Shown: positions 286-20,341 of the stretch, in pieces | Numbering within the stretch: position 1 is the first letter of the stretch | Layout: each line of letters opens with the position of its first letter | Virus record (IMG/VR): IMGVR_UViG_3300032116_001628 | Coordinates: 1-20,341 of that record | Strand: one strand, 5' to 3' | Origin: a virus | Length of the DNA: 20,341 bases | Translations under genes and position numbers: made by a program | Notes under the pieces: generated by a model | What the model was told of the DNA's origin: nothing | The model's database searches: none | The model's input: only the letters and a program-made list of their open reading frames with translations

Positions 286-771
286 CTAGTAGTTGAGTAC
301 GCAGTAGTCCATTCCGATAGACATTACCAATTCGGTAGGATCAGAAGTAGACCAGTCATAGTTACCAAAAGTAGCTTCTTTAATGAACGCACCTTTGATA
401 ATCCACTCACTTACAATGTCACCTACTGGACCTATGATAGACAAGTTAAGATCTTTCTTATAGAAGTCAGAATAACCGTCACGACCAGTTACAGACTCAT
501 GGTGAAGACGAACCCACTCAATCACGGCTTGTTGACCAGAAGGAGAAATTGGGTTATAGAGTGACAAACTCATATCTCTCCATTCAGCTTTACCTTTAAT
601 CTTACGGTAAACATTGATGTGGTCGAGTTTGATCTCGTTTAAAGTTACCCCTGGAGCGTCGGCCTTCTTAATCATATAAGAAGGAATACCGTCGATGTAC
701 ATCACAAATCTATTTGATACTGTAGGTTCAAACGCTGTGAACATTATTTCATTTGGATCCAATACTGGCAT
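286..771 (-). CDS. Tail tube protein (T4 gp19 family)
   Basis: This 161-residue protein is the building block of the inner tube of the contractile tail, through which DNA leaves the head. Its length matches T4 gp19 (about 163 residues). Family features visible are an N-terminal NRFVMYIDGIPSYMIKKADAP segment, a central KGKAEWRDMSLSLYNPI segment, and a C-terminal stretch with NYDWSTSDPTELVMSIGMDYC, the typical two-sheet tube fold ending in a strand that reads as a measure of relative position. The ATG at 771 fits the family start. A coding-strand AATATTTATA motif lies 23 bases upstream, and a strong terminator follows the stop, so this gene closes the tail-tube transcript. In T4 genes 18 and 19 are adjacent; here a coiled-coil gene lies between them. 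Confidence 0.93.
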   Translation of the reverse strand: MPVLDPNEIMFTAFEPTVSNRFVMYIDGIPSYMIKKADAPGVTLNEIKLDHINVYRKIKGKAEWRDMSLSLYNPISPSGQQAVIEWVRLHHESVTGRDGYSDFYKKDLNLSIIGPVGDIVSEWIIKGAFIKEATFGNYDWSTSDPTELVMSIGMDYCVLNY

Positions 772-794
772 TGTATATTAAGTTTTATTCTACT

Positions 795-804
795 TATAAA
801 TATT
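795..804 (-). promoter_or_regulatory. ATATTTAT-type upstream motif before tail tube
   Basis: The coding strand reads AATATTTATA, 23 bases before the tail tube ATG, in the 48-base gap after the preceding gene. Same motif and similar spacing as before the baseplate, sheath and 19354 genes. Possible late promoter, inferred. Confidence 0.45.
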
Positions 805-819
805 CGATAACGAATTTAT

Positions 820-1341
820 TTATGCTTGTGCTTTTTTGCCCTTAATTTTATTAATTGCATTTTTTATTTCTATTGCTGCAGCACCACCTAATAATGCAGC
901 TAATGTTGATACTCCAGATAGAAGAATATCAAACTCGTGTCCGGCCATTTTAGAAGCAGACTTGAGTATATCATATGCATTTGCAGGATCTGCAAATATT
1001 TGTGATATAATTTCTTGAACACCTTCGTTAAGCTGTCCCTCTTCTACTTTATCTTTTGAACCCATTTCCATTTCATTGATCTTCTTATCAAGCTTTTCTT
1101 TAGCAGCTTTTAATTCGTCTAATGTACGAGTTTTCTTTTCCATTTCTTTATCTATTTCTTCTATTTGATTTACTTCTTCAACTTTTTTCATTCCGTCTTT
1201 AGGAAGCTTCTTTTCTTTAACTACTGTCCAGTCACCAAAAGCCTTTCCAGACTTTTTAGCTTCAGTTATAGTCAATTGTTTTTTTACACTCTCATACAAG
1301 TGTGCTGGAACTTTGATTCTTAATACTGTATTATCATTCAT
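820..1341 (-). CDS. Coiled-coil virion-associated protein of unknown function
   Basis: I do not recognise a named family. This 173-residue protein has three visible parts: a short N-terminal segment (KVPAHLYESVKKQLTITEAKK, described by residues 10-30), a charged helical stretch at about 50-95 rich in Glu and Lys that is probably a coiled coil, and a C-terminal part (about 125-165) with a hydrophobic Ala/Leu/Gly segment (ILLSGVSTLAALLGGAAA) followed by a Lys-rich tail. Two sites, ITE-A (25-28) and LNE-G (104-107), fit the (L/I)xE cleavage rule of T4 prohead protease, which would suggest a processed virion or core component; this is speculative. It sits 17 bases after the sheath gene and lacks its own upstream motif, so it is probably co-transcribed with the sheath. 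Confidence 0.6.
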   Translation of the reverse strand: MNDNTVLRIKVPAHLYESVKKQLTITEAKKSGKAFGDWTVVKEKKLPKDGMKKVEEVNQIEEIDKEMEKKTRTLDELKAAKEKLDKKINEMEMGSKDKVEEGQLNEGVQEIISQIFADPANAYDILKSASKMAGHEFDILLSGVSTLAALLGGAAAIEIKNAINKIKGKKAQA

Positions 1342-1358
1342 CTTAAAAATCTTTTATA

Positions 1359-3104
1359 TTATTGACCAAATGTTGTGCCAGTTGGAAGAATGTTGAAGTC
1401 AAGTTGAATGAATTCCGCAGTCTTGGTTGGTTGCAAGTAAATGGTACCAACTAATTGGTTACGATCTACTACATCTGGTGTATTATTTGTCTCGTCCATC
1501 ACCACTTGGAATGCATACAAACCTTGTCTTTGTTGTACAGACTCTAAGTAAGGATTAACTTGATTTAAGAATTTATTACGAGTTACTTGGGTATTTGGTT
1601 CAAACACAATTGTTTCACCAATTTGTCCAATGTAATCTTTAAGAGCAATCAACAATCTGCGAACGTTTACACGATCAAGAGCAGAAGGCTTCTGTTGTAA
1701 AGTCTTTTGACCATAGATAACAGTACCAACTCCAGGGAATGCAGCGATCGGATTGATTTTTCCTTGATAAAGAAGGTTGCGATCATTAACAGTTAACTTT
1801 CTTTCTGGTTGAAGCACGGTTGCTAATGCACCGCGATTTAAACCTGCTGGGGCAAACCATTCTGCAGATACTTTATCATTGTATTCATATACTGCTGGTA
1901 CCAAGGTAGAAGCAGGAACAAAATTCAATTTACCAGTCTCACGGCTTCTAATTTGTACCCATGGCCAATATGTTGCACCATAAGAGTTGTCATAATTTAC
2001 AGCTTGTGTAAGTACGCTATTGATTTGAGCTCCATATCCTACCATGTCAATTACTGCGATAGCATCACCACGATCTTGAGCTAAAGTAAGAATAGAACCA
2101 ATTGTAGTTTCAGAATTTTCATTAGTTAAACCAGGAGCATAAACAACATTAAAGTCGTATGTATCTTGATTTTCAAGTAAATTTATACCAACGGCATAAT
2201 CTGCTGAATGTACACCTTGAATATTAGTTGTTGGAGTTGCAACTACTGAATTAGCAGATGGAATACTTTCAAAGAAATTTACAGGAGCTTTTCCTAATGA
2301 ACCAAAAAGAGCTCCAATTGCACCACCAAAAGATCCAGAACCTACTTTAGGCATCGAAGATGTATATTGGTTTTGGGCTATTCCGTTTTGGCTAAAATAT
2401 CCAGGTGTTGGTAAATTTACAGACTTAACTCTTACATAACGGCTCCTATTTGCATAAGATCCTGTAGTTTGTAAATAATAATCACCAGTAGAATCTGTAC
2501 GAAGAGTTTGGGTTTGATCACCAATCACATAAGCAATATAGTTATTTTGATTAGGATCTAAAGAAAGACCATTCCATGTTTCAAGGATAGTCTTACTATT
2601 ATTGTAATCGTCGCCACGACGAATAATTAAATTAAATACACCTGAACCTGTATCAACAGAAGTAATTTCCCAACGTACATTAGAAGACGATCCTGAAGGA
2701 AGTGATCCATTTACAGATAGTCCTCCAACATTATTCATTACTGTACCTACAGATAATGTTTCTAAATCAAATGATGAAGACGTTGAAGGATTGAGTACTG
2801 AAGAGGTTGCTGCTGTATAAGAACCAGAAGCTACTCTAGTAATTAACAAAGAATCACCACCTTGCTCAAAGTAATTGAGGGCAGCAATTGAAGTTAAATA
2901 CTCATAGTTAAAACCTCCAGAAATAAATGAAGCACCAAAGAGCGCTTTATATTCTGAATAGGAAGTTACTAATGTAGGAATATTAACTGGTCCAGTTACA
3001 GTAGGTCCTAAAAGTGCTGCGCCAGCGGCAACAGGTCCTTGTGTTATTTGGGATAAATCGTTTTCATTTAAGAAAACTCCTGGGCTAATAAGTGTTTCGG
3101 CCAT
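1359..3104 (-). CDS. Contractile tail sheath protein (T4 gp18 family)
   Basis: This 581-residue protein forms the contractile sheath around the tail tube. The N-terminus has the standard sheath opening ISPGVFLNENDLS, followed by a variable Ser/Gly/Thr-rich surface domain. The middle holds the conserved sheath core with YDFNVVYAPG and the AIAVIDMVG segment, then YWPWVQIRS and a PASTLVPAVY segment. The C-terminal domain (roughly the last 150 residues) has APAGLNRGAL, NPIAAFPGVGTVIYGQKTL, NVRRLLIALKDYIG and FEPNT, all typical of this family. It is somewhat shorter than T4 gp18 (about 659 residues), as in many T4-like phages. The ATG at 3104 is preceded by a motif GATATTTATT 20 bases upstream and by no Shine-Dalgarno. 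The tail tube follows two genes later. Confidence 0.96.
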   Translation of the reverse strand: MAETLISPGVFLNENDLSQITQGPVAAGAALLGPTVTGPVNIPTLVTSYSEYKALFGASFISGGFNYEYLTSIAALNYFEQGGDSLLITRVASGSYTAATSSVLNPSTSSSFDLETLSVGTVMNNVGGLSVNGSLPSGSSSNVRWEITSVDTGSGVFNLIIRRGDDYNNSKTILETWNGLSLDPNQNNYIAYVIGDQTQTLRTDSTGDYYLQTTGSYANRSRYVRVKSVNLPTPGYFSQNGIAQNQYTSSMPKVGSGSFGGAIGALFGSLGKAPVNFFESIPSANSVVATPTTNIQGVHSADYAVGINLLENQDTYDFNVVYAPGLTNENSETTIGSILTLAQDRGDAIAVIDMVGYGAQINSVLTQAVNYDNSYGATYWPWVQIRSRETGKLNFVPASTLVPAVYEYNDKVSAEWFAPAGLNRGALATVLQPERKLTVNDRNLLYQGKINPIAAFPGVGTVIYGQKTLQQKPSALDRVNVRRLLIALKDYIGQIGETIVFEPNTQVTRNKFLNQVNPYLESVQQRQGLYAFQVVMDETNNTPDVVDRNQLVGTIYLQPTKTAEFIQLDFNILPTGTTFGQ

Positions 3105-5761: not shown

Positions 5762-8700
5762 TTATTTATTATTTACTAAATAATTAATTTGGGTTTGTAG
5801 ATTGTTTATTTGCTTTTGCTGTTCTTTTATTGCCTCTATCAATAGTGGTACTAACTTCTCATATTGTACAGTTAAATAGTCTTCTCCTGTTATTGACTTG
5901 TCATTTCCATTATTATCGAATGGAGCTAATTTAACTGCTTCAGGAAGTACTGCTTGAACGTCTTGTGCAAATACGCCAACTAATGATTCTTCTGTGTTGT
6001 AGTTGGCTAATTCTTTTGCTTTATTATTCCAGTTATAAGTAAAGCCTATCAATTTTTCTACTTTCTCTAATGGTGTTTCTATAGACTTAATATTAGTCTT
6101 TAAACGTCTATCTGATGAGTATGCTACTATATCATTTGATGCATCTATTCTACCATCAGTCGCATTTGGTGCTACATTCACACCTAGAGCTCCTGTGTTA
6201 ACTCTAGCATCTCCTACTATATCTAGTCTATATGTTGGGTTCGTATTATTAATACCAACTTCACCACTAGATTTTAATGTAACTCTTTCTGATGTGTCTG
6301 AGCTTCTAATGTGTAGACCGCCAGTACCAAAATCCATATAATTTTCTGTACCGTTTAAATGCAGTCTAAATCTATTTCCTGAATCGGCATTATTACCCAT
6401 CCATATATTAGTAACAGAATCTGTTAAGAATAAGTCTCCTCCTGTTAATGTAAGTTTTGATCCTGGTGATACTGTGCCTATACCAACATTGGTGCCATTA
6501 TCAAATATTGGAACGCCTGTATTACCAATAGTAGTAGCAGAAGTAAATTTAGCTACATAGTTTGTTGTTCCTGATACAGCTACTGATGTACCACTAGTAC
6601 CTGAACTACCAGATGATCCAGGTCCACCAGTTTGTCCAGATGTTCCAGATGTGCCGCTACTTCCTCTAGTGCCAGATGTACCAGACGAGCCAGATGTTCC
6701 AGATGAGCCAGGTGCACCAGTTTGTCCAGATGTTCCAGATGAGCCAGGTGCACCAGTTTGTCCAGATGTTCCAGATGAGCCAGGTGCACCAGTTTGTCCA
6801 GATGTTCCAGAGCTACCAGATGATCCAGGTGCACCAGTTTGTCCAGATGTTCCAGAGCTACCAGATGATCCAGGTGCACCAGTTTGTCCAGATGTTCCAG
6901 ATGAGCCAGGTGCACCAGTTTGTCCAGATGTTCCAGAGCTACCAGATGATCCAGGTCCACCAGTTTGTCCAGATGTTCCAGATGTGCCGCTACTTCCTCT
7001 AGTGCCAGATGTACCAGACGAGCCAGATGTTCCAGATGAGCCAGGTGCACCAGTTTGTCCAGATGTTCCAGATGAGCCAGGGGCTCCATTTGCTCCACTA
7101 GTACCAGACGAGCCAGATGTTCCAGATGAGCCAGGGGCTCCATTTGCTCCACTAGTACCAGACGAGCCAGATGTTCCAGATGAGCCAGGGGCTCCATTTG
7201 CTCCACTAGTACCAGACGAGCCAGATGTTCCAGATGAGCCAGGGGCTCCATTTGCTCCACTAGTACCAGACGAGCCAGATGTTCCAGATGAGCCAGGGGC
7301 TCCATTTGCTCCAGATGTACCTGCGCTACCAGATGTTCCAGATGAGCCAGGGGCTCCATTTGCTCCACTAGTACCAGACGAGCCAGATGTTCCAGATGAG
7401 CCAGGGGCTCCATTTGCTCCAGATGTGCCGCTACTTCCTCTAGTGCCAGATGTACCAGACGAGCCAGATGTTCCAGATGAGCCAGGGGCTCCATTTGCTC
7501 CAGATGTACCTGCGCTACCAGATGTTCCAGATGAGCCAGGTGCACCAGTTTGTCCAGATGTTCCAGATGAGCCAGGGGCTCCATTTGCTCCAGATGTGCC
7601 TGCGCTACCAGATGTTCCAGATGAGCCAGGGGCTCCATTTGCTCCAGATGTGCCTGCGCTACCAGCTGTACCAGATGAGCCATTTGTTCCTGAACTTCCA
7701 GAGGTGCCTGAGCTACCTGAGGTTCCAGATGAACCTGTCGTGCCTGAACTTCCAGTTGTTCCACTGCTTCCTGAAGTTCCTGAGCTACCTCGTGTACCGG
7801 ATGATCCAGAAGATCCTGCAGATCCCGATGTACCTGAACTTCCTGCTGTACCTGAGCTACCAGCAGTACCAGATGAACCTGTCGTGCCTGAACTTCCTGT
7901 AGTACCAGATGAGCCATTTGTTCCTGAACTACCAGCTGTACCAGAGCTTCCTGAGGTTCCAGAACTTCCTGAGGTTCCGCTACTTCCTGTTGTTCCAGAA
8001 CTTCCTCGAGTACCTGATGTGCCACTGCTTCCTGCCGTACCTGAACTACCTGATGTGCCAGCTGAACCAGCAGTACCTGCACTACCAGATGTGCCAGAAC
8101 TTCCAGATGTTCCTGCACTACCACCAGTGCCTGAACTTCCTGTAGTACCTGATGAGCCATTTGTTCCTGAGCTGCCTGAAGTACCTGAGCTGCCTGAAGT
8201 ACTTGAACTACCAGATGTACCAGAGCTTCCTGTTGTTCCAGAACTTCCTGTCGTACCAGAGCTTCCTGATGTTCCTGAGCTACCTCGAGTGCCAGACGTG
8301 CCAGACGAGCCTGCAGATCCTGATGTTCCTGAACTACCTGAGGTTCCGCTACTTCCTGTCGTTCCAGAACTACCAGCGGTACCAGATGAACCGGTCGTAC
8401 CGCTACTTCCTGTTGAACCTGAACTACCTGCAGTGCCTGCTGAACCAGAGGAACCTGTTGTTCCAGAACTTCCAGAAGTTCCAGAAGTTCCAGAAGAGCC
8501 AGTAGTTCCTGAACTACCTGATGTACCAAATGTTTCACCTGATGTACCTGCAGTTCCTGAACTTCCTGCTGTACCTGAACTTCCTGTAGTGCCTGAACTT
8601 CCTGCAGTACCTGACGTGCCAGACGAGCCTGCTGAACCAGAACTTCCAGATGTGCCAGAAGTACCAGATGAGCCAGTTGTTCCTGAACTTCCTGTAGTGC

Positions 8701-10681
8701 CTGAACTTCCTGAGGTTCCTGAGCTACCTCGAGTGCCTGACGTGCCAGACGAGCCTGCTGAACCAGAACTTCCAGATGTGCCAGAAGTACCAGATGAGCC
8801 AGTTGTTCCTGAACTTCCTGCTGTGCCTGAGCTTCCTGATGTTCCCGAGCTACCTCGAGTACCTGATGTGCCAGACGAGCCTGCTGAACCAGAACTTCCA
8901 GATGTGCCAGAAGTACCAGATGAGCCTGTCGTGCCTGAACTTCCTGCTGTGCCAGAAGAACCGGCAGAACCAGTAGTACCAGCACTTCCAGACGTGCCAG
9001 AAGATCCTGACGAGCCAGAACTACCTGTAGTACCTGAAGTACCAAAAGTTTCTCCTGAAGTTCCTGCGGTACCTGATGAACCTGATGCCCCAGTCGCTCC
9101 AGAAGTGCCAGACGAGCCAGAACTTCCTGATGATCCTGATGTTCCTGAGCCTATTTGATAATCATTTATGCCATAGACTCTAAAACTACTTATTTTCCAT
9201 GTAGAAGTACCAGCTGTTTGAGTTATATCAACTGCTATGGTAACATTACCACCTGCTGTAAATGGCGCTACTGCTACTAGTGTTTGTCCAAATTCATGAA
9301 TATCACCTGCGCCACCTTCACCTTGTAACTCTATTGTTTTTCTTAAGGTGCCTCCATAAGACGCACTTACAATTAATGTAGCATCAGCATTAGTTGGAGA
9401 AATAAGTACAGCTTCTACCTCAGTCATAATCTGGGTGTATGTATTTGCCGCTAGCGTATAAGATTTTACACTTGCATTATCTACTGTACCTGTTGAGTCT
9501 GTTGTATCAAAGTATAATAAATTTATTGATCCAGTTATATCTAAAGCAGGAACAGATTGTCCTGATGTGCCTGATGTACCAGTTTGTCCAGAACTTCCTG
9601 CAGTACCGCTAGATCCAGATGAGCCTGTGCTACCACTAGTACCAGAGCTTCCCGCACTTCCATTTTGTCCAGATGTGCCTGACGAACCAGTCGTACCAGA
9701 AGAACCAGAACTTCCTGTTGTTCCAGACGAGCCTGCTGTACCTGTAGAACCTGAACTTCCTGAGGTTCCAGACGAACCTGCTGAACCAGATGTTCCAGAG
9801 CTACCTGAAGATCCTGATGAACCAGACGATCCATTTTGACCAGATGTTCCTGAACTTCCTGCCGTACCTGAAGAACCATCACCTCCTGATGCACCAGCTA
9901 AGTTAACTTCCCAATTAGAATATGTTCCTGTTCCCACAACTGTTGATGGAGTTGCGAATTCAAAATATCCTGTTATAGGATTATAGTCTACAATTTGAAC
10001 CTCTTCATAGTTAAAGATATCGTATGCAATAATTGCTGTCTGAGCAATTGAGTATGCTAGCCCTCCTTCAACATATATACTACCACTAACTCCAAGGAGT
10101 AATGAACTTGTAGAATTAGTTAAGTACCTATCTCCTGATAAACCAGCAGTTCCAGCTGTGCCAGCAGTTCCAGATGTTCCAGAAGATCCTGAGCTACCTG
10201 CTGTTCCTGTACTTCCTGACGATCCTGAGCTACCAGATGTGCCAGATGATCCAGAACTACCTGAAGTCCCAGAACTTCCTGATGTTCCGGATGAACCGTC
10301 ACTACCAGCAGTACCGCTAGACCCAGAAGTACCAGACGTGCCAGATGAACCTGCAGAACCAGCAGATCCTGCACTACCTGCAGTACCTGAAGTAAATGAA
10401 GTTGATGAGATAGGTTGGCCATTAAGAATTAATGAGCCTGTTATATTTACAGAACCTGTTACTTGAATACCACTACCTGATACTAATAAACTACCAGTTA
10501 TTTCAGCAGAGCCAGAAAAAGGAAAACCAGAACCACCAAATCCGCCAGTTCCATAGAAAAAACTGCCAGATGTATCTGCTACTACAACTCTTGTTGCTAG
10601 GGTATTTGGTTGTAGATTAACTTTGAGAGTATTAAATCTAGCATTACCATCTTGCCTAGGTGCTTCTATTCTAAATCCCAT
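5762..10681 (-). CDS. Giant collagen-like tail fibre with S74 chaperone domain
   Basis: A 1639-residue fibre. Residues 1-98 form a virion-side head with GSLxVSG-type repeats (57-88). Collagen-like Gly-X-Y blocks follow at about 99-183, 266-374 and 511-1364, separated by globular beta-rich modules at 184-265 and 375-510. The triplets are mostly GSS, GTS, GSA, GTA, GTT, with GAN, GAP and GQT near the C-terminal side and almost no charged residue. Residues 1367-1520 make a tip domain (NVGIGTVSPGSKLTL, then a beta-rich region). Residues from 1523 are the Peptidase_S74 self-cleaving chaperone, with the catalytic SDRRLK (1523-1528), GVFAQDVQAVLPEAV and a C-terminal coiled coil. The family is known to trimerise the fibre and then cut itself off at this Ser. 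The gene is directly downstream of the glycosylation cluster, which may modify its Ser/Thr residues. Confidence 0.93.
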   Translation of the reverse strand: MGFRIEAPRQDGNARFNTLKVNLQPNTLATRVVVADTSGSFFYGTGGFGGSGFPFSGSAEITGSLLVSGSGIQVTGSVNITGSLILNGQPISSTSFTSGTAGSAGSAGSAGSSGTSGTSGSSGTAGSDGSSGTSGSSGTSGSSGSSGTSGSSGSSGSTGTAGSSGSSGTSGTAGTAGTAGLSGDRYLTNSTSSLLLGVSGSIYVEGGLAYSIAQTAIIAYDIFNYEEVQIVDYNPITGYFEFATPSTVVGTGTYSNWEVNLAGASGGDGSSGTAGSSGTSGQNGSSGSSGSSGSSGTSGSAGSSGTSGSSGSTGTAGSSGTTGSSGSSGTTGSSGTSGQNGSAGSSGTSGSTGSSGSSGTAGSSGQTGTSGTSGQSVPALDITGSINLLYFDTTDSTGTVDNASVKSYTLAANTYTQIMTEVEAVLISPTNADATLIVSASYGGTLRKTIELQGEGGAGDIHEFGQTLVAVAPFTAGGNVTIAVDITQTAGTSTWKISSFRVYGINDYQIGSGTSGSSGSSGSSGTSGATGASGSSGTAGTSGETFGTSGTTGSSGSSGSSGTSGSAGTTGSAGSSGTAGSSGTTGSSGTSGTSGSSGSAGSSGTSGTRGSSGTSGSSGTAGSSGTTGSSGTSGTSGSSGSAGSSGTSGTRGSSGTSGSSGTTGSSGTTGSSGTSGTSGSSGSAGSSGTSGTAGSSGTTGSSGTAGSSGTAGTSGETFGTSGSSGTTGSSGTSGTSGSSGTTGSSGSAGTAGSSGSTGSSGTTGSSGTAGSSGTTGSSGTSGSSGTSGSAGSSGTSGTRGSSGTSGSSGTTGSSGTTGSSGTSGSSSTSGSSGTSGSSGTNGSSGTTGSSGTGGSAGTSGSSGTSGSAGTAGSAGTSGSSGTAGSSGTSGTRGSSGTTGSSGTSGSSGTSGSSGTAGSSGTNGSSGTTGSSGTTGSSGTAGSSGTAGSSGTSGSAGSSGSSGTRGSSGTSGSSGTTGSSGTTGSSGTSGSSGTSGSSGTNGSSGTAGSAGTSGANGAPGSSGTSGSAGTSGANGAPGSSGTSGQTGAPGSSGTSGSAGTSGANGAPGSSGTSGSSGTSGTRGSSGTSGANGAPGSSGTSGSSGTSGANGAPGSSGTSGSAGTSGANGAPGSSGTSGSSGTSGANGAPGSSGTSGSSGTSGANGAPGSSGTSGSSGTSGANGAPGSSGTSGSSGTSGANGAPGSSGTSGQTGAPGSSGTSGSSGTSGTRGSSGTSGTSGQTGGPGSSGSSGTSGQTGAPGSSGTSGQTGAPGSSGSSGTSGQTGAPGSSGSSGTSGQTGAPGSSGTSGQTGAPGSSGTSGQTGAPGSSGTSGSSGTSGTRGSSGTSGTSGQTGGPGSSGSSGTSGTSVAVSGTTNYVAKFTSATTIGNTGVPIFDNGTNVGIGTVSPGSKLTLTGGDLFLTDSVTNIWMGNNADSGNRFRLHLNGTENYMDFGTGGLHIRSSDTSERVTLKSSGEVGINNTNPTYRLDIVGDARVNTGALGVNVAPNATDGRIDASNDIVAYSSDRRLKTNIKSIETPLEKVEKLIGFTYNWNNKAKELANYNTEESLVGVFAQDVQAVLPEAVKLAPFDNNGNDKSITGEDYLTVQYEKLVPLLIEAIKEQQKQINNLQTQINYLVNNK
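6606..7081 (-). repeat. 36/45-nt tandem units and a 143-bp exact duplication
   Basis: Within the C-terminal side of the fibre repeat, 6606-6748 and 6939-7081 are identical over 143 bases and 333 bases apart. Between them the GQTGAPGSSGTSG-coding unit starts at 6711, 6747, 6783, 6828, 6873, 6909 and 6954, so spacings are 36 or 45 bases. All are multiples of 9, keeping the Gly-X-Y phase. High DNA identity marks recent duplication by slippage or recombination. Confidence 0.9.
7081..7296 (-). repeat. 54-nt tandem repeat, four near-exact units
   Basis: Units begin at 7081, 7135, 7189 and 7243; the next, from 7297, starts alike and then diverges. Each codes for the 18-residue unit GANGAPGSSGTSGSSGTS. 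Inspection shows no base change among these units, so this block is the most recently expanded part of the fibre gene. Confidence 0.9.
8616..8993 (-). repeat. 126-nt higher-order repeat, three copies
   Basis: A segment starting GTGCCAGACGAGCCTGCTGA on the plus strand recurs at 8616, 8742 and 8868, exactly 126 bases (42 residues, 14 triplets) apart, with some synonymous differences between copies. Each copy is bounded by a Gly-Thr-Arg triplet on the protein side. This is an older, more diverged layer of repetition than the 54-nt block. Confidence 0.8.
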
Positions 10682-10781: not shown

Positions 10782-12860
10782 CTATAGTTCGTTTTTAATT
10801 AGCCTAATTACTTCTTCACCAGAAATAGTTTTACTACATTCAAATTGTCTTTGGGTGTTTTTATGTTTAGGACACCAATTCCAATCTCCTGGATCTAACT
10901 TATGCGTATTGAAGCAACCTCTACAGAAGCCATCTTTTGTATAAACTCTTATGCAATCTTCAAATTCAGTAACAGGATTAGAGAATCCAGATATAACGCA
11001 TGTTCTAGTACCTAGTGCCCAACTAAGCCAACTAAGTCCACTACTAATACCTATAAACATTTTTGATCGTTGTAGTATATCAATAGTAGCTTCTATGCTA
11101 GTATCATTTAAATATTCAACTCCAATAGGGTTTTTGTTACCCATATAACCGTCTTCTTCTTTAGATATTAGAATTACTCTATATCCTAGACTCTTTACAT
11201 AGTCAACTACTTTTTGCCAACCTGTTTTATTATTCCAATATTTAGATTGTGCTGTACTATGTACTGCAATTGTAACTATTTTTTCTTTCTTTACATTTTT
11301 CTTTACGGCCATTCTAGGCTTTACTTCTTTATAGTCAAGACCTAGAATATCAGATGCAGTCTTTTGTAGTTGTATATTTTTAAACTCACTAGAATGTCTA
11401 TTATAATCAATTGAACCGTCTTCTTTATAGAACCAACCAATTAAATACATAGCGTGTAGATTAGTAACTTCTACTGCTGGTTCAACAAATTGAAATTCAG
11501 GATATTCTTTCTCAAAGAACTTATTCCAGAATGTAGATACTATCATCTCACAACCATGCTTCTTTTCAAACTCTTTTATTTGAGGGAACCATGCTAATGT
11601 ATCACCTAAAGATTTAGATTCTAAAGCTACATAAACTCTTTTTGCTTTTAAGTTCATTTTATATTCAAAGACACTTTTACCATCATCTACTTTTATTTTC
11701 CAATCAACAAAGTAACTAACATTGGCTCTGATCCAATGATCTTTTTTAATCTTTCCTGAATGGTGAATTATACCGGTCTTTTGATCTATAAATTCTACGT
11801 TATATTCTTTGTCTAGGCCTCCTTTTATTTCTAAGTAAGGACCATTTATGAAATGGATATTAAAATCAGGTTCAGGAACTTTTGATTCTATGGCTAATTT
11901 TTTAATGGTATTATAACTATTAATAAGTTGACTAGTCATATTGTCTTCATATTTTTCTAATAATTCAATAGTCCTATTTTTCCAAGACCTTTCTATAGCC
12001 GTTGTTCTTGCTAATTTAGACTGTCTTTGATATTTTATAGGATCTAATAATTTAATTATCTTTTCTTTTATTTCTTCTGTATTTCTTTCTACTCTTACAA
12101 GTCCTTTTAACTCATTATTATCTTCATACGTACCTATAACTGGTAAACCTGATGCCATTGCTTCAAGCAGGGTTAAATTAGGATGGCCGGCCTCTAAAAT
12201 AGACGGGTGTAAAAAGATAGTATGCTGTTTATATAAGTCTCTTAACGCGTCTTCTGTAAGATCATATAGTACTGTTAGTTTATCATAAGGAAGTTTTTCT
12301 CTTTCAAAATAAGATTGATTATTTTTAGGACCTGCTATAGTTAAAGGTAACTCAAGCTCTTTAGCAGCTTGTATAGCATATCCAAAACCTTTTCTATCTT
12401 CAGCTTGATCATGTATAAAACCGTTGTTTGCTACGCATAAAAGTCTATGTTCTTTATTACCAGAAGGAGTAAAGTAGTCAGTATTAACTCCATGTGAAAA
12501 GTATTCTGGTATTCCTTCAAAATAGTCTACTAAATACTTAGCAGGTACAAACGCTTTCTTTGCATTCTTTATAGCCTCTAGGTTTTCTTTGTAAGCATGT
12601 GAATCTTTACCATATAAGTAAGCATGGTGATCATGCATAGTGAAATAATAAGGAATACCTTTCTTATGCGCCAGGTTTGCAAGATTTGCCACATGAATAT
12701 GAACTATATCATAATCCTTTATATCGTCCAGAAATAGGATCTGTGAGTCGTGGCCTAGTTCTTGGAGGCATTTATGTGTTTCCCATATAATTTTCTCTAC
12801 TGCACCCCAACCATTAGGTGGAATTGGTATTAATCCTGGCGTAACATTGATTATTTTCAT
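10782..12860 (-). CDS. GT4 glycosyltransferase fused to TibC/Aah-like O-heptosyltransferase
   Basis: A 692-residue two-enzyme chain. Residues 1-310 are a GT4 glycosyltransferase with the N-terminal GWGAVEKI loop, NNGFIHDQAEDRKGFG and LHPSILEAGHPNLTLLEAMA; the two glutamates (E223, E233) are two residues farther apart than the usual EX7E. Residues 335-395 are a beta-rich segment. Residues 405-692 match the autotransporter O-heptosyltransferase family (TibC, Aah): ALESKSLGDTLAWFP (412-426), STFWN, IAVHSTAQSKYWNN (531-544) and GISSGLSWLSWALG (604-617). C646, C649, C663 and C675 correspond in order to the four cysteines known to bind iron in TibC. That family adds heptose to Ser/Thr of repetitive surface adhesins. 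The gene starts 5 bases after the previous stop and is the last gene before the fibre, which I infer is its acceptor. Confidence 0.87.
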   Translation of the reverse strand: MKIINVTPGLIPIPPNGWGAVEKIIWETHKCLQELGHDSQILFLDDIKDYDIVHIHVANLANLAHKKGIPYYFTMHDHHAYLYGKDSHAYKENLEAIKNAKKAFVPAKYLVDYFEGIPEYFSHGVNTDYFTPSGNKEHRLLCVANNGFIHDQAEDRKGFGYAIQAAKELELPLTIAGPKNNQSYFEREKLPYDKLTVLYDLTEDALRDLYKQHTIFLHPSILEAGHPNLTLLEAMASGLPVIGTYEDNNELKGLVRVERNTEEIKEKIIKLLDPIKYQRQSKLARTTAIERSWKNRTIELLEKYEDNMTSQLINSYNTIKKLAIESKVPEPDFNIHFINGPYLEIKGGLDKEYNVEFIDQKTGIIHHSGKIKKDHWIRANVSYFVDWKIKVDDGKSVFEYKMNLKAKRVYVALESKSLGDTLAWFPQIKEFEKKHGCEMIVSTFWNKFFEKEYPEFQFVEPAVEVTNLHAMYLIGWFYKEDGSIDYNRHSSEFKNIQLQKTASDILGLDYKEVKPRMAVKKNVKKEKIVTIAVHSTAQSKYWNNKTGWQKVVDYVKSLGYRVILISKEEDGYMGNKNPIGVEYLNDTSIEATIDILQRSKMFIGISSGLSWLSWALGTRTCVISGFSNPVTEFEDCIRVYTKDGFCRGCFNTHKLDPGDWNWCPKHKNTQRQFECSKTISGEEVIRLIKNEL

Positions 12861-12865
12861 ACTCT

Positions 12866-13843
12866 TTATTTAAATCTTACAAAGCTTTTACTTCTTAATA
12901 TTCCTTCTCTTGTATATTTTTTAGTGTAGTTACCTACAGTCATAGTAAAGGTATCACTATTAGAATCTATGACTTCAGCTAAATATGTTTTAGATAATGG
13001 TAGATTCTTTGATACTACATCATTTATTTTAAAATCAATAAACTCATTAGAGTCTCCTGGGCTATTATAGATATATACGTAAGCAAGCTTATCTGTATTT
13101 TCTACTTTTACTATTCTTAGCTCAAAAGGATGTTGAATACCGTCTTCTCTAAAAGATGTTAAAGATGTTTTACTATCTTTAAAATATTCACTAAAATGCG
13201 CAGATTTTATTATCATTACATTATTTAGCTTATCTTGATTTTTTAATGATCGATATAAAAAGTTTTCTAAAATACCAAAACTACCTATTTTATAACAAAC
13301 ATCATTATATTCATCTACATTTTTAGGATCTGGGAAGTTATTTAAAAAATACTCAGTATCGCAGCAAAAAATATTAGACTCTAAAACAGGATCTGATTCT
13401 AATGAAAAAAACCAACCTTTTTTATTTTCTAAATATGCTTGGTTTGTAAGACTTTTAATCTTTTCAATATCTGATACTGAATATTCTGAATCTGATTCTA
13501 TATAGTAAAAGGTTTTATAGTAGTCTCTAGCAAATCTTAATCCATTCATTATTAGTCTATATATAGCAAAACCAGGATGGGTTGATGATCCTTCTATATA
13601 TCCTTGAAAATAGAACTGGTCACAATCTCCGTAAATATAAACGTCTTCATTTAGAACCATTTCATTTCGATAGTCATAAATGTAATAGTTAACCATATTT
13701 TGTGTTTCAATATCAGCAGGATAATGAGTACAAAGCATGATGTCAAAATGTTCTCTAAAACTATTTATACAATTCTTTAATATCTGTTTAGATTTTTCAG
13801 AAGACGGATATGATCCTAATATAACTAAGTCTTTTTTATTCAT
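12866..13843 (-). CDS. Putative GT-A-type glycosyltransferase with C-terminal beta domain
   Basis: A 325-residue protein. I place the start at the ATG at 13843, which overlaps the upstream TAA as TAATG, rather than at an in-frame TTG farther upstream. It opens DLVILGSYPSSEKS, a pattern typical of a phage/bacterial sugar-transferase group, and has a YIYDYRNEM segment (54-62), a HPGFAIYRLIMNGLRFAR segment and YYIESDSEYS (113-122), where ESD could serve as the DxD-like metal site. Residues from about 250 look like a small beta-sandwich (YVYIYNSPGDSNEFIDFKIND). Its organisation parallels the 361-residue gene two genes upstream (14934-16019), so I treat the two as distant paralogues. Donor and acceptor are unknown; the setting says glycan assembly. 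Confidence 0.68.
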   Translation of the reverse strand: MNKKDLVILGSYPSSEKSKQILKNCINSFREHFDIMLCTHYPADIETQNMVNYYIYDYRNEMVLNEDVYIYGDCDQFYFQGYIEGSSTHPGFAIYRLIMNGLRFARDYYKTFYYIESDSEYSVSDIEKIKSLTNQAYLENKKGWFFSLESDPVLESNIFCCDTEYFLNNFPDPKNVDEYNDVCYKIGSFGILENFLYRSLKNQDKLNNVMIIKSAHFSEYFKDSKTSLTSFREDGIQHPFELRIVKVENTDKLAYVYIYNSPGDSNEFIDFKINDVVSKNLPLSKTYLAEVIDSNSDTFTMTVGNYTKKYTREGILRSKSFVRFK

Positions 13844-14937
13844 TACTTCATTATGTTTATAAGACAATGATAAGAAGAGTGATAATAGATAGGATACATA
13901 GATGATATTCTATTTATAATCTCTTGTGTATATTGATTTTGTGCTTGGTCCCATATTACTAACTGTACTTTTTTAACAATATCTGCTTCTCTAGTAGATG
14001 TAAACTTTTCTAAATCATCGATAGTCTTAATAGCAAATACAGCATAGTCTTCATTACCATCTATCTTATTTATATTAAAATCATGATCAAAAAATAACTC
14101 TTTTAGTATCTGCTTTTTCTTATGGTCTATAGAATAGTCAATATATGATATTTTTAATTGCTCTGTTGAATTATTTAGATGGTGGTCCATCAAGCATACT
14201 GACTCTGAGTGTATTGGTTCAAAGTATCTGTTTAATGTATCTATGTCTTTATCTACTCTCCTTTCATTTACTCTTTTAATCAATTCAGAACCTTCTTCTA
14301 CTGCTTCATTTCCATATACTGAATGAGAGATAGAATTATCTCTATAGTTATAATAGTATAAATTCCTAGGAAGGTTTAGTATCTTTCCTTGTTCTTCTAA
14401 TGTACACAGTATTGACAAGTCATTATAGTAATACTTCATCCAGTTATTAGGATTAAAGTCATATTTTATATTAGGATTATTTCTCCATGCTCTTAAATGG
14501 GTTAGATATCCACAAGCCATGTTTGGCTTATCAATATAGTTAGGATTATGAAAATTCATCCAGTCTCCATTCTCTTTAAATAAATTTCCACAAGAGGTTA
14601 TTGCTATTGTATCAGGGAATTTTGTAAAGAAATGATGATAAACTTCTAAAGCTTTAGGTAGTGGATAATCATCTTGATCTGCTTGTACTATTATTTCAGC
14701 TTCACGGCAAAAACGTTGAGGATTGTAAAACATTTCTTTTTTATGACTCTGCTCTACATATTTAACTCGCCTATCATTTTTAGAGATATATAACAAGATC
14801 TCTTTTGCGTCATCAGATGAAAAGTCATCAGTCACTACCCACTCCCAATTTGTATACGTTTGTGCTTTTATTTTTTCATATAAACGAGATACAAATTTAG
14901 AACCATTATAAAAACTAGTGACTATTGTAAATTTCAT
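13843..14937 (-). CDS. GT2 family glycosyltransferase
   Basis: A 364-residue protein whose first 220 residues are a GT2 (GT-A fold) transferase: TIVTSFYNGSKFVSRLY at the N-terminus, the nucleotide-binding TDDFSSDD (36-43) and the metal-binding ADQDD (86-90). Residues from about 250 form a smaller unassigned C-terminal part. It would transfer a sugar from a nucleotide-activated donor, acting in the host cytoplasm during infection. The ATG overlaps the preceding stop by the classic ATGA, and its own stop overlaps the next start (TAATG), so it is translationally coupled on both sides. Specificity cannot be read from the sequence. Confidence 0.85.
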   Translation of the reverse strand: MKFTIVTSFYNGSKFVSRLYEKIKAQTYTNWEWVVTDDFSSDDAKEILLYISKNDRRVKYVEQSHKKEMFYNPQRFCREAEIIVQADQDDYPLPKALEVYHHFFTKFPDTIAITSCGNLFKENGDWMNFHNPNYIDKPNMACGYLTHLRAWRNNPNIKYDFNPNNWMKYYYNDLSILCTLEEQGKILNLPRNLYYYNYRDNSISHSVYGNEAVEEGSELIKRVNERRVDKDIDTLNRYFEPIHSESVCLMDHHLNNSTEQLKISYIDYSIDHKKKQILKELFFDHDFNINKIDGNEDYAVFAIKTIDDLEKFTSTREADIVKKVQLVIWDQAQNQYTQEIINRISSMYPIYYHSSYHCLINIMK

Positions 14938-16019
14938 TTAAATACTATTTCTGGTTGATAGTGGTAATTGGGTATATCTATATTCTGTATTTGAACAGCA
15001 TTATTTTCAAAATAAACATTGAATGTCTTATGATAAGGACTATTTTGATGCCTTATTTTTACTTGGCTAACATTTTTAACATTTGATAAATATTCATATC
15101 TCCACTGACCTGTTATTTCAAAATATAAACTAATAGTATTAATTAAATTATTTTCATGATCGTAAATATCAAAATATGCAGTTGTAGGAGAATCTGATGA
15201 AACGTTCTGCGCTGCTACACATAGATTATTTGGGTCGTTTTTATCTATATTTTTAATTATCATAACATCGGAAAGTAAACCACTAAAAACACCAACTGGT
15301 GATTGGTGTATATTAAAATGTGTATCATTAAATGTTTCATTCATAAGTTTACCATCTTGGTATAAAACATTTAGATCTTGCCTTTGTATAAGTCTATATA
15401 TAAACTCTTCTAATATTATGGCTTTATTTTCTAGACCTATTTCTTTTAGGGCTTTTTTATAGTCATATTCATTTTTAATATGCCCAAATATTTTAGTAAA
15501 AGCATCAGATGAATAGAATATTAAATGAGTTGAAATATCTATTTTATTATTTCCATAATCATTTTTATATGCATAAAAATCATATTTATTATCTTCTATA
15601 TCTTTACATACTTCTTTTATTTTTTTAAGAGAGCTAAACCCAAAAAAATCGTCAAACTCAAATCTAATAACATTATTATATCCTAAAGCTTTAGCTATAC
15701 CAGCACCTTTTATCATTGATCTTAAGACAGTTATACTATGCTTTTGAAAACCGTCTACAACAAAATTCATGGCGATTCCTCCATAATGATTCCACCATAT
15801 CATAGGTTCAGGTTTTTCATATTCTAGTTCCATTAACTGATTCTCTGGATCATAATAGTAATGGTCTACGTGCTCATAAAAGTCTAACGGGAGAGGTTTT
15901 GGAGACGTTACTAATATCTTAAAACCAATACTTTTTAATCTCTTAAGATTCTTATATGCAGTTAACTCAGCCTCTCTACTAGTTAAGTATAAGTGTATAT
16001 GTATGACAAAACTATTCAC
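14934..16019 (-). CDS. Putative glycosyltransferase with C-terminal beta domain, GTG start
   Basis: A 361-residue protein starting at GTG (16019), which overlaps the upstream TAG as TAGTG; no suitable ATG lies near. It begins SFVIHIHLYLTSREAELTAYKNL, then KILVTSPKPLP and HYYYDPENQLMELEYEKP (53-70), a pattern shared with a sugar-transferase-like group in phages. RFEFDDFF (119-126) is the candidate metal-binding segment. Residues 90-140 align loosely with the 325-residue gene downstream, and from about 260 both have a strand-rich accessory domain (TAYFDIYDHENNLINTISLYF). I am confident it belongs to the glycan cluster, less so about its exact fold. The AGAGGG before the GTG lies inside the conserved 3' end of the upstream gene and may be chance. 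Confidence 0.65.
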   Translation of the reverse strand: MNSFVIHIHLYLTSREAELTAYKNLKRLKSIGFKILVTSPKPLPLDFYEHVDHYYYDPENQLMELEYEKPEPMIWWNHYGGIAMNFVVDGFQKHSITVLRSMIKGAGIAKALGYNNVIRFEFDDFFGFSSLKKIKEVCKDIEDNKYDFYAYKNDYGNNKIDISTHLIFYSSDAFTKIFGHIKNEYDYKKALKEIGLENKAIILEEFIYRLIQRQDLNVLYQDGKLMNETFNDTHFNIHQSPVGVFSGLLSDVMIIKNIDKNDPNNLCVAAQNVSSDSPTTAYFDIYDHENNLINTISLYFEITGQWRYEYLSNVKNVSQVKIRHQNSPYHKTFNVYFENNAVQIQNIDIPNYHYQPEIVFK

Positions 16020-19000
16020 TATTTGACCCTCTTTAAGTATCCATCAGGATTGAATGTAGCATTGGTTCCAAAGAAGTCACATAAACTTCTATCTACTATA
16101 AAGTCATCATTAGTTTGTAAGAATTCATCAATAGCCCTTCTAGGTCCGCCGCCATATCTATCTGCTGCGCCAGTAAATGAAACTACACCATCTTCAACAA
16201 TAAAATAAGACTCTTTAGAAACAACTTTATGAAACTTGTTCAGTGCCTTTAATACATCTTCGTATGTGTGAGCAGCATCATCAATAACAAGTATTTTCTC
16301 AAATCCTTTTGTATTCTCTTCTATATCGTATGCATCAAACCCTCCATAGAAAAATCTGATCTGTCCATGATTAAATACTTTTTGATCGTATACTTCATTG
16401 TGTAGATTAATTGTATGGACTTGACCTTTACCTAATAGATACAATAAGTCTGCATAATATAAAGCGCCGCCACCATTTAATGTACCAATTTCAATGATTA
16501 AATCTGGTTTGATATCCATGATTATCATCTGGTATAATACATAGTCCATTGGGCATTTAAGGTATGGAACACCTTTATATTGCACTCTAAAATGTCCATT
16601 ATAGACATCAAATAAGTTAATGTCTGACTTATCAACTAATACTTGTTTATTCACGTTAGGGAAATTTTCTCTATGAACTAATCTTTGTTTTGCACCTTGC
16701 TCTTCTTTCCAGTCTACAGACTTCTCACCAAAGTGTCCATCAGGTGTAACTCTGTAAACTCCAGACGGCCATTTTTCATTCTTACATTTACCATATTGAA
16801 GCATGAGTAAACTTAATGCCCAATATCCATCAAATATGTCTTGATTAAAGAACCAATCAGGAAATACCGGATATTGTAAAATAGGGTTTTTAAACATGAA
16901 GCCATAAGATACGCAATTATGATCTACTTGATCTCTTAAAATAACATCTTCTTTGAGTCCATATAGGTTAAAAGAAGGTAGAGTTTCATCTACATTATCT
17001 TTTTCAAACTGATAATATCCGGTACAGTGTATAGAATATTCTGGATTGTTGTCTAAGAAGTTAACTTGTTTTTGTAATTTATAATCATCTGTATAAAAAT
17101 CATCTGCATCTAAAATAGTAACATATTTAGATCTAGTCTTACTCAAAATGTGATACAGCATTTTAGTATTTGGTCCTAGATTAGTTTCATTTCTTGATAT
17201 AATTACATTTGATGTATCTTTATATTTTTCAATAATATCGTATGTAGTATCTGTTGATTGATCGTCACAAATAATTAAGTCAAAATTAAATAGTGTATTT
17301 TGTTTTAGAACACTATCTATAGCTTTTTCTACATATTTTTCTTTATTATATGTAGGAATAATGACAGTAACTAGTTTGTCTTTAGGACTTTTTTTAGCAA
17401 ATATAGTTCCTATGGCTGATGAATTATATGACTCTTTTATACTTTGGTTGTTATTACTATTTTGATTCCTTATCTGATCTATATCATAACCTGCTTTGAC
17501 TAATTTTGTTACAAGCTTTTCTGCTCTACCATCATAATTATCATGGTATTCAATCAAGAAGTTATCTATTTTATCAAATATTTCAGGCTCTAAGTTATCA
17601 ATAATATCATACTCAGCACCTTCAATGTCCATTTTTAATAAAGATATTCTATCAATATTATTTTGATCAAAGAATGTCTTTAGCGATACTGCTGGTACAA
17701 CTATCTTTTCTACTTTTGAACCATTATTAATAATGTGATCTTCAGATATACTTCCAATTGTAGTATTATTAGGATCTATATAAAAGACAAGGTCTTCATC
17801 TTTAGTATAGACAGCTTTATCTATAACTTCCACATTTATGCCTTTAACTAACTGATTTAAGTTAATTAAAGACTCTTGATTAGGTTCAAAAGCATATACT
17901 TTTTTAGCGCCTTTCTTTATTGCTAAAAGTGAAAATAGTCCGCTATTTGCACCAATATCAAATACAGTTTCCATCTTATCTAACTCATAACAATCATATT
18001 TGTTATCAACAAACATTTCATTATAGTTGTTAAATAAACAATCAAAATGATTCTTGATGTCTAGCTTAAATTTGCCACTAGGTTTAGGGTTTTTTACAAA
18101 TATAGTCTTACTAAACGCTATATTGTTTTCTTTATCGTAGAACTCAACTAAGAATGATCCAAAGTGAGGATCTTTTGCAAAATCAAATGTATGAATAGGA
18201 ATTGGAATAATCCACCATGATGAACTAGGGCCAAATTCTGCCTCTGTCCAATACATAGGAGCATTAGAGTCTTTGTCTTTAATACTAATCTTATAATAAC
18301 TATTATTGTTCTTTTTATATGTAATATTGAACTTATTCTCACTACTATCAAATGTTATATCAAAATATTCGTCTACTTTATTAATCTCCATCTGTAATTT
18401 GTTTACTATCTTTTGTATGTTTTTAGACTTGTCATTAAAATCTAGGTATTCTATATTATTGTAGTCATCAAAATAGTTGAGGTATACATCTAGATTAAAA
18501 ATCAATGATGGAGTTTTCCAACTAATAGCCTCTCTAATTACTAGAGGCATTGTTTCTTTATCTGTATTTGATCCTCTAGATGTAAATAAAAACAAGTCTG
18601 CCATTTGAAAGAATAAGTCTACATCAGTTCTTTCGCCCCACCAAGTACAGTTACTTGGAAAGTTTTTCATAAGAGGCTCCCAATAGTATTGAAAATTGTC
18701 TGCTTGGTTACCAATAAAGTGAAACTGAATAGGATAGTCTTTAAGCATTCTAGCATACTCTATTACTTCTGCTTGATTCTTTCTAGGTGTAAATAGTCCT
18801 ACATTTATAATATGTTTCTTATTAGGATCTAAACCTAACTGTTTCATTAACTCTTCTCTAATATAAGTTCTATCTTTATACTCTATAGGATACTCTACTA
18901 ACTCACAAGGTATATTCAACCTCTGATATTCGTTTATTTGGTATTGACTTACCATCATAAACTTATCTGGAAAGTGTACTTTATTATCTACATTGTAGCT

Positions 19001-19354
19001 AGAATCATGTGATGTTTCAATAATAATATAGTCTCGATCTTTAGAATATAGCTCGCAGGCTAATTCATATGCCATAAACATTTCTGGGATCTCCTGAAGG
19101 TGTACAAAGTCAGGTTTGATATCTTCTATGGTTTTAAGAAGATCATGCTTATTCGCGCCTAATGTGATCAGGCGACTACCTAATATATCTAGGATTCTAT
19201 TCCTTTGAACTACTAATTTTCCTCCTGTAACATCATCCCACTCAACACAATAAACGTCAAAGTCCTTTATTAAGGACTCTATTTGTTTGTACAAGTATTG
19301 GGGCATTCCACCCGTAGATAGGTGAGGTGCAATAAACAATAACCTTTTTTTCAT
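16019..19354 (-). CDS. Multidomain enzyme: GT4, beta domain, FkbM MTase, GT2, CmcI-type MTase
   Basis: A 1111-residue chain from ATG at 19354 (an in-frame TTG just before it is less likely). Domains in order: GT4 (about 1-325; PHLSTGGMPQY loop, NVGLFTPRKN, E267 and E275 as EX7E); a strand-rich linker (about 330-422); FkbM-type SAM-dependent O-methyltransferase (about 463-600; VFDIGANSGLFSLLA, AFEPN, MDIEGAEYDI); GT2 (about 662-870; TVIIPTYNKEKYVEKAI, CDDQSTD, LDADDF); and a CmcI/rhamnosyl O-methyltransferase-like domain (about 930-1111; LIIEIGTLNGGGALYYADLL, VIDDAAHTYEDVL, FIVEDGVVS, GGGPRRAIDEFL, PDGYLKRV). It appears able to add two sugars and methylate twice. It leads the coupled glycan operon and has an ATATTTAT-type motif 17 bases upstream. 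No frameshift or stop is seen. Confidence 0.88.
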   Translation of the reverse strand: MKKRLLFIAPHLSTGGMPQYLYKQIESLIKDFDVYCVEWDDVTGGKLVVQRNRILDILGSRLITLGANKHDLLKTIEDIKPDFVHLQEIPEMFMAYELACELYSKDRDYIIIETSHDSSYNVDNKVHFPDKFMMVSQYQINEYQRLNIPCELVEYPIEYKDRTYIREELMKQLGLDPNKKHIINVGLFTPRKNQAEVIEYARMLKDYPIQFHFIGNQADNFQYYWEPLMKNFPSNCTWWGERTDVDLFFQMADLFLFTSRGSNTDKETMPLVIREAISWKTPSLIFNLDVYLNYFDDYNNIEYLDFNDKSKNIQKIVNKLQMEINKVDEYFDITFDSSENKFNITYKKNNNSYYKISIKDKDSNAPMYWTEAEFGPSSSWWIIPIPIHTFDFAKDPHFGSFLVEFYDKENNIAFSKTIFVKNPKPSGKFKLDIKNHFDCLFNNYNEMFVDNKYDCYELDKMETVFDIGANSGLFSLLAIKKGAKKVYAFEPNQESLINLNQLVKGINVEVIDKAVYTKDEDLVFYIDPNNTTIGSISEDHIINNGSKVEKIVVPAVSLKTFFDQNNIDRISLLKMDIEGAEYDIIDNLEPEIFDKIDNFLIEYHDNYDGRAEKLVTKLVKAGYDIDQIRNQNSNNNQSIKESYNSSAIGTIFAKKSPKDKLVTVIIPTYNKEKYVEKAIDSVLKQNTLFNFDLIICDDQSTDTTYDIIEKYKDTSNVIISRNETNLGPNTKMLYHILSKTRSKYVTILDADDFYTDDYKLQKQVNFLDNNPEYSIHCTGYYQFEKDNVDETLPSFNLYGLKEDVILRDQVDHNCVSYGFMFKNPILQYPVFPDWFFNQDIFDGYWALSLLMLQYGKCKNEKWPSGVYRVTPDGHFGEKSVDWKEEQGAKQRLVHRENFPNVNKQVLVDKSDINLFDVYNGHFRVQYKGVPYLKCPMDYVLYQMIIMDIKPDLIIEIGTLNGGGALYYADLLYLLGKGQVHTINLHNEVYDQKVFNHGQIRFFYGGFDAYDIEENTKGFEKILVIDDAAHTYEDVLKALNKFHKVVSKESYFIVEDGVVSFTGAADRYGGGPRRAIDEFLQTNDDFIVDRSLCDFFGTNATFNPDGYLKRVK

Positions 19355-19371
19355 CAACCTAAGTCTTTATT

Positions 19372-19761: not shown

Positions 19762-19771
19762 TATAAATATT
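19762..19771 (-). promoter_or_regulatory. ATATTTAT-type upstream motif before the 107-residue gene
   Basis: The coding strand reads AATATTTATA, 14 bases before the ATG at 19747. It overlaps the stop codon of the upstream gene by one base. Putative late promoter by recurrence. Confidence 0.43.
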
Positions 19772-20341
19772 TACTGATTATCAAATTCTTTATACATTTC
19801 ATTCCATTTTGCATCTGATTCTTTAGGTTCCCATCCTGATATCCATGGTCCTCCTAGTGTATAGTGGAGTATTGTTGCTTTATTAAGTAATAAATTATCA
19901 TTTATATCTACTAAATGATTCCACTTATTATCTAATTCACCTATTTCTTCATCTTTTAACCATTTGAAAGCATGTAAATCCCTACCAGGCCATTTATTTA
20001 AATTATGTAATGTTAATTCTTCATGTGCAGGATGATTACAATTAATTAACATAACAGATGACCAGTTTTTTCTGTTATAATAAACAGAGGCTTGATCTAC
20101 CATTTTTATTTCACTACTCCCCACCTTTTGTTGGTGTTTAACAACCATCACAGCATACTGTGGATCTGCTTGATCAAATAATTCATCTATATTTTCTAAA
20201 GCAATAATATCACAATCAGCAAACAAAACCCAACCTTTTTCCATAAATGGAATTGCAAATCTAGAAATAGAAAATTCAGTAGTTTGAGGAGCTTCTGATA
20301 TAGGGCACCACATTTGGTTTCCTCTCCATTCAATAGGTCTA
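19771..20341 (-). CDS. DxD glycosyltransferase (GT8-like), 3' part only
   Basis: The reading frame is open to the right edge of the window and upstream codons add RPIEWRGNQ before the Met at 20313, so the true start lies outside and the Met is internal. About 189 residues are visible. WCPISEAPQTTEFSISRF, GWVLFADCDII (with the DCD metal-binding motif), YAVMVVKHQQ, RKNWSSVMLINCNHPAH, GRDLHAFKWL and a C-terminal HYTLGGPW segment follow the order known for a GT8-related group that transfers sugars with a DxD metal site. It is probably another member of the glycan cluster, transcribed just upstream of the 107-residue gene. Donor and acceptor are unknown. Confidence 0.78.
   Translation of the reverse strand, partial: RPIEWRGNQMWCPISEAPQTTEFSISRFAIPFMEKGWVLFADCDIIALENIDELFDQADPQYAVMVVKHQQKVGSSEIKMVDQASVYYNRKNWSSVMLINCNHPAHEELTLHNLNKWPGRDLHAFKWLKDEEIGELDNKWNHLVDINDNLLLNKATILHYTLGGPWISGWEPKESDAKWNEMYKEFDNQ

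Follow-up and report, generated by a model that had tools for sequence, protein, structure and literature searches.

A phage-encoded GT4/TibC-like fusion protein with a predicted role in glycosylation of a neighbouring collagen-like fibre

Enzymes of the TibC/AAH type (TIGR04414; PDB 4RAP and 4RB4) are often encoded next to an autotransporter gene (PMC4358343). In TibC, D110 is the catalytic base, T226 and K230 bind phosphate, and R286 contacts N1 of adenine, a contact to which the ADP specificity is attributed; replacement of R286 with alanine abolished or largely diminished heptosylation, and a thumb (F265/V266) joins dimers into a ring (PMC4358343). In this work, we analysed a 20,341-nucleotide stretch of viral DNA (IMG/VR record IMGVR_UViG_3300032116_001628, positions 1 to 20,341; hereafter the window), in which an open reading frame (ORF) at 10782-12860 encodes a glycosyltransferase family 4 (GT4) domain fused to a TibC-like domain and is followed by a gene for a collagen-like fibre. 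We propose, with a probability of about 0.62, that this protein is a virion-modifying glycosyltransferase that O-glycosylates Ser/Thr of the phage's own proline-poor fibre, with the GT4 domain extending the sugar. The literature consulted, which covers the subject in part, gives no account of TibC-like enzymes in phages or of their glycosylating such fibres, and makes no mention of Microcystis phage Mel-JY01, a phage considered below.

The window protein resembles TibC/AAH in its beta-barrel and GT-B core, catalytic Asp, Thr/Lys phosphate site, Trp, and four iron-finger Cys, but differs in being fused to GT4, in having T in place of R286, in its short thumb, and in falling outside the TibC clade (100/100). 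Its neighbour is a Gly-Ser/Thr fibre rather than an autotransporter, and no autotransporter gene was found among the window ORFs scanned. Another virus-encoded two-domain enzyme, Mimivirus L230, is a collagen lysyl hydroxylase-glucosyltransferase that glycosylates a collagen-like protein encoded by the same virus (PMC9614988), as is proposed here; by its description, however, L230 belongs to a different family, and it acts on hydroxylysine, whereas we propose Ser/Thr. No hydroxylase was seen in the window. Most collagen-like proteins of bacteria carry no glycan, BclA being an exception (PMC8968730). This Bacillus exosporium protein parallels the proposed acceptor as a glycosylated prokaryotic Gly-X-Y protein, with a glycan that possibly serves stability, but its triplets differ. 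The collagen-like tail fibres EPclP of Escherichia coli O157 prophages are likewise phage Gly-X-Y fibres without hydroxyproline (PMC3368898); EPclP has abundant Pro at X and many charged residues, whereas the X/Y positions of the window fibre have 2.6% Pro and 1.9% charged residues. Recombinant EPclP is not glycosylated, and the E. coli prophage collagens rely on Pro and charges (PMC3368898). Both are nearly absent from the window fibre; a glycan could supply stability or shielding. Mycobacteriophage virions are glycosylated at the C termini of capsid and tail-tube proteins (Freeman et al. 2023, as cited in PMC12619734); glycans on phage virion proteins are also proposed here, but on fibre repeats. 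The enzyme, its parts, and the proposed acceptor are as follows.

10782..12860, minus strand: fused GT4/TibC-like glycosyltransferase, 692 amino acids (aa) (ORF with ATG start; Pfam, TIGR04414, phmmer, and Foldseek)
11931..12860, minus strand: GT4 domain, residues 1 to ~310 (PF13692/PF00534)
12162-12194, minus strand: EX9E motif, E223/E233, in the GT4 domain (invariant in relatives)
10785..11864, minus strand: TibC-like domain, residues ~333-692, beta-barrel then GT-B core (TIGR04414, phmmer, and Foldseek)
10836..10925, minus strand: iron-finger segment with C646, C649, C663, and C675 (alignment to TibC C339, C342, C358, and C370)
5762..10681, minus strand: proposed acceptor, a 1639-aa collagen-like fibre with a C-terminal Peptidase_S74 chaperone domain (Pfam and repeat count)

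The original prediction, which was made from the nucleotide sequence, described a TibC-like heptosyltransferase fused to a GT4 enzyme, and both family assignments agree with our searches. Residues 351-689 match TIGR04414 hepto_Aah_TibC (1.1e-84; 284.6 bits, exceeding the curated cutoff of 200), and phmmer aligned residues 372-688 with the TibC structures 4rb4/4rap (2e-56); the hidden Markov model search against TIGR04414/TibC that had been suggested is therefore significant, which excludes the lack of a TibC match. By Pfam, the C-terminal half has a GT9-like core and the N-terminal half is GT4 (PF13692, 4e-13; PF00534, 5e-12). For the AlphaFold model of the 692-aa protein (predicted local distance difference test, pLDDT, 87; predicted template modelling score, pTM, 0.55), the best Foldseek match was TibC (E 6e-32; TM 0.84 on target), with GT4 enzymes next, which indicates that both domains fold as expected, the GT4 half as a GT-B fold. 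In the TibC numbering of PMC4358343, D110, T226, K230, and W305 correspond to D420, T536, K540, and W611, and all are kept. The four ordered cysteines to which the original prediction had drawn attention are exactly those of the TibC iron finger (C339 to C646, C342 to C649, C358 to C663, and C370 to C675), and the match of the predicted fold to TibC suggests that they meet. These residues and cysteines are invariant across the 37 distinct viral homologues, the window's included. No PHROGs family matches the TibC-like domain of the window, and the whole-window DNA had no match among phage records.

The fibre contains 341 Gly-X-Y triplets in which X is Ser (45%) or Thr (41%), giving 86% Ser/Thr, and its gene lies 101 bp downstream of the fused enzyme gene. 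A fibre-like gene directly follows the enzyme in five other loci as well (L002, L004, L006, L007, and L023). In Methylobacter, other Methylococcaceae, and a metagenome-assembled genome (MAG) labelled Polaromonas, a standalone enzyme adjoins small secreted repeat proteins of the GTSGTSGTAG type, with unrelated surroundings and no visible phage genes nearby; Methylobacter luteus carries an enzyme homologue and a repeat protein together. Among 151 Methylococcaceae genomes, counted after dropping matches with non-Ser/Thr codons, Gly-(Ser/Thr)-X repeats were found in 7/8 enzyme carriers and 4/143 others (Fisher p=8e-9), and the repeat protein adjoins the enzyme gene in seven of the eight carriers. 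No repeats were found in the three Methylococcaceae genomes that have classic family members (654-663 bits). The residue after Gly in these repeat proteins is mostly Thr/Ser and the following position is variable, which suggests the post-Gly residue as the acceptor.

The association also holds in the reverse direction. Viral contigs of at least 40 kb were picked only by a DNA pattern for six Gly-Ser/Thr-Ser/Thr triplets and searched whole, and 18/31 encode a TibC-like domain (247-480 bits); two control contigs with GTT or GAS repeats had no such domain. As base rates, the TibC-like part was found in 4/50,697 phage records, and the enzyme was found within 10 kb in 2/87 loci picked by a related sheath or tube. 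Those sheath- or tube-picked loci had been considered for a two-by-two test of their own, gave too few positives for it, and were kept as a base rate. The contrast between 18/31 and 2/87 (p=4e-11) is only indicative, because the extent of search was unequal and the records are related. The viral records are fragments in general, and related ones are not independent. Most of the 18 enzyme-bearing contigs encode proteins without the GT4 signature, so the TibC-like domain is what goes with the repeat. Enzymes of this type thus track Gly-(Ser/Thr)-X repeats in both directions, and the recurrent pairing in phages and some bacteria makes proline-poor, collagen-like Gly-Ser/Thr repeat proteins the likely target. 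The original prediction had named no acceptor; it is this neighbourhood evidence that points to one. Among named phages, Microcystis phage Mel-JY01 has both an enzyme homologue, with Ile at position 286 and the same short thumb, and a repeat fibre. Flavobacterium phage immuto, the closest sheath relative among named phages (54% identical sheath), had no enzyme match and no Gly-Ser/Thr repeat in the 33 kb read. The Mel-JY01 fibre (L167, PP395634.1) occupies positions 1-2520 of the plus strand at one end of the genome, and the PP395634.1 annotation lists an antisense VPEVPELP frame (739-2298, minus strand) as a hypothetical protein, on the wrong strand.

The original prediction regarded the fusion inside a phage as unusual, but a GT4-TibC fusion recurs in ~30 viral loci, mostly at 44-73% identity, and in a 735-kb phage. 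It also noted two extra residues in an EX7E-type motif; the spacing between E223 and E233 is indeed EX9E, yet it is no oddity, since all GT4 fusions found share EAGHPNLTxLEA without change, and the unfused GT4 of L063 and L064 has EX9E as well. These two loci encode the GT4 separately, a short way upstream of the TibC-like gene; this Rosetta stone arrangement argues for the two domains acting in one pathway. In other relatives, GT4 is replaced by an FkbM or other methyltransferase, by a dehydrogenase, or by a second GT9-like stretch, or the TibC-like domain stands alone; it is therefore this domain that is constant. Several arrangements are worth recording. L022 (10001-12962) has a GT4-TibC fusion directly followed by a separate second TibC-like gene (281 aa), in L046 (5242-7989) the TibC-like domain shares one protein with an FkbM methyltransferase and a short-chain dehydrogenase, and an 824-aa protein encoded in L043 (9995-12469) combines a DUF6165 domain with two GT9-like stretches. 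L063, L064, and L067, which are labelled as Winogradskyella, Flavobacteriales, and Chloroflexi MAGs, resemble phage DNA, and sheath- and tube-like genes adjoin the enzyme gene in L063.

Several observations weigh against fibre glycosylation by the fused enzyme. GT4 is not a constant partner of the TibC-like domain. Of the eight Methylococcaceae carriers, one (G005) lacks a repeat protein next to the enzyme gene. Thirteen of the 31 repeat-bearing contigs have no enzyme domain; their repeats must be either modified by other enzymes or left unmodified. The 2/87 base rate comes from 10-kb flanks, whereas the 31 contigs were searched whole. Conversely, no repeat was found in the enzyme-bearing records G023-G025 (near-identical), in the L024-L032 clade, or within 20 kb in LR756504, all of which are fragments or partial views.

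The computations show family membership, the fusion, the fold of each domain, conservation of the catalytic and metal-site residues, the fibre gene next door, and the association of enzyme and repeat in both directions; the acceptor, the role of GT4, and the effect on the fibre are inferences. The TibC-like domain would use a nucleotide sugar to glycosylate Ser/Thr in the Gly-(Ser/Thr)-X repeats encoded at 5762-10681, in the host cytoplasm and prior to fibre assembly. The fused GT4 domain would then attach a second sugar, and the glycan would be extended and capped by further glycosyltransferases and methyltransferases encoded in the surrounding island. The product would probably stabilise or shield a long fibre whose repeats are nearly without proline and have few charged residues. 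In a vent-worm cuticle collagen, stabilisation is provided by glycosylated threonine at the Y position. Here, the conserved residue is in X, so the stabilising step is conjectural. More broadly, and only tentatively, phages and some methane-oxidising bacteria may share a dedicated O-glycosylation of proline-free Gly-(Ser/Thr)-X collagen-like proteins by a distinct iron-finger subfamily with a changed donor, in which the sugar replaces the stabilising role of hydroxyproline in animal collagen. If fibre glycosylation is true, a recurrent and unannotated phage enzyme would gain an acceptor and a function, the TibC family would extend beyond autotransporters, and the stabilisation or shielding of phage fibres that are collagen-like but poor in proline could be explained.

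Judged from its sequence, the window protein belongs to the TibC superfamily without being a classic autotransporter heptosyltransferase. In a maximum-likelihood tree built with column 286 masked, TibC groups with the classic bacterial members in a 100/100 clade that leaves the window protein outside. It was placed among mainly phage sequences, in a region that also holds the Methylococcaceae copies and two from Burkholderiales and in which the deeper forks are weakly supported. Within Methylococcaceae, TIGR04414 scores are 654-663 for classic members and 303-327 for window-type enzymes, a gap indicating that the cutoff of this model spans two groups. Two features that the original prediction had not described bear on its functional claims. 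The position of R286 is occupied by T592, so a heptose donor, and with it the name "heptosyltransferase", is unproven. The thumb, SKEEDGYMGNKNPIGV, is shorter than that of TibC and does not keep the tip residues F265/V266, so the active dodecamer that had been proposed is also unproven.

Of the 37 viral homologues, 15 have Arg at position 286 and the other 22 have Thr, Val, or Ala; the phage-type group has mostly Thr, Val, Ala, Ile, or Met, and the Arg is absent from all nine bacterial loci (L055-L062 and L065). It is retained near the phage group in L020, L044, L063, L064, and LR756501, and the tree implies at least four state changes. A true O-heptosyltransferase that works on a new acceptor with host ADP-heptose, as TibC and AAH do, is a serious possibility at somewhat below even odds. 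It is consistent with the score above the TIGR04414 equivalog cutoff, with the retained D110, T226, K230, and W305, and with HldE (TIGR02199) in 7/8 and gmhA-like genes in 8/8 Methylococcaceae carriers; however, HldE is widespread, so its presence says nothing about use here, and the arginine that TibC needs is replaced in this protein and in most of the phage-type group. The host HldE pathway was rejected as a test of the donor, since most carriers have HldE and G081 is too ambiguous to rule out ADP-heptose (no HldE domain II match, domain I truncated inside a 1932-aa open frame, gmhA present). A less favoured alternative keeps the same acceptor and takes the loss of the adenine-reading Arg286 as the mark of a switch to another nucleotide sugar. 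The role given to R286 in ADP specificity, its absence in 22/37 viral homologues and nine bacterial loci, and the repeated changes on the tree all agree with such a switch, whereas a threonine or another residue could still accommodate adenine, and Arg persists in some sequences close to the phage group. An explanation of the repeat association by R286 loss alone was rejected, as L063, L064, and LR756501 keep R286 near GTSG repeats. The viral contrast by R286 (13/16 against 2/9 records, with the L046 repeat counted) has a nominal p=0.009 among related records.

The window is from a contractile-tail phage with a glycosyltransferase island, in line with the virion-gene region recognised in the original prediction. 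Its other features are as follows.

286..771, minus strand: tail tube (phrog_4542)
1359..3104, minus strand: tail sheath (PF04984/PF17482, phrog_23)
12866..13867, minus strand: island ORF, weakly similar to 14934-16019 (no Pfam, NCBIfam, or PHROG match)
13843..14937, minus strand: island GT2 glycosyltransferase (PF00535)
14934..16019, minus strand: island ORF, no family match (no Pfam, NCBIfam, or PHROG match)
16019..19357, minus strand: 1112-aa multidomain protein with GT4, FkbM methyltransferase, GT2, and RMNT/CmcI methyltransferase domains (Pfam)
19771..20340, minus strand: GT8-like glycosyltransferase, cut by the window end (PF01501 at 5e-4, below the curated cutoff; phrog_28018)

The several GT2, GT4, GT8-like, and methyltransferase domains would also fit an island that remodels the host surface polysaccharide, a common reading of phage glycosyltransferase islands, with the position beside the fibre gene being incidental. 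We consider this unlikely, because TibC-family enzymes modify protein, enzyme and repeats are paired in bacterial chromosomes too, with no visible phage genes nearby, and the reverse test gave 18/31. More improbable still is that the enzyme modifies phage DNA or another virion protein, e.g., the sheath or tube. Phage glycosyltransferases can act on DNA, capsid, and tail tube (PMC12619734), and the enzyme gene directly precedes the sheath gene in some loci, but relatives picked by sheath or tube are mostly without the enzyme, and the bacterial GTSG partners would be left unexplained. For fibre glycosylation, the 1112-aa protein, relatives of which are present in 23 of the compared loci, is a possible agent of glycan extension and capping. 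The ORFs at 12866-13867 and 14934-16019 resemble each other weakly (22%, E 5e-5) and are perhaps glycosyltransferases. Two long ORFs within the fibre gene, at 6580-9045 (minus strand, 821 aa) and 6651-9158 (plus strand, 835 aa), were rejected as artefacts of a period-9 DNA repeat; such spurious repeat-frame ORFs are an annotation trap.
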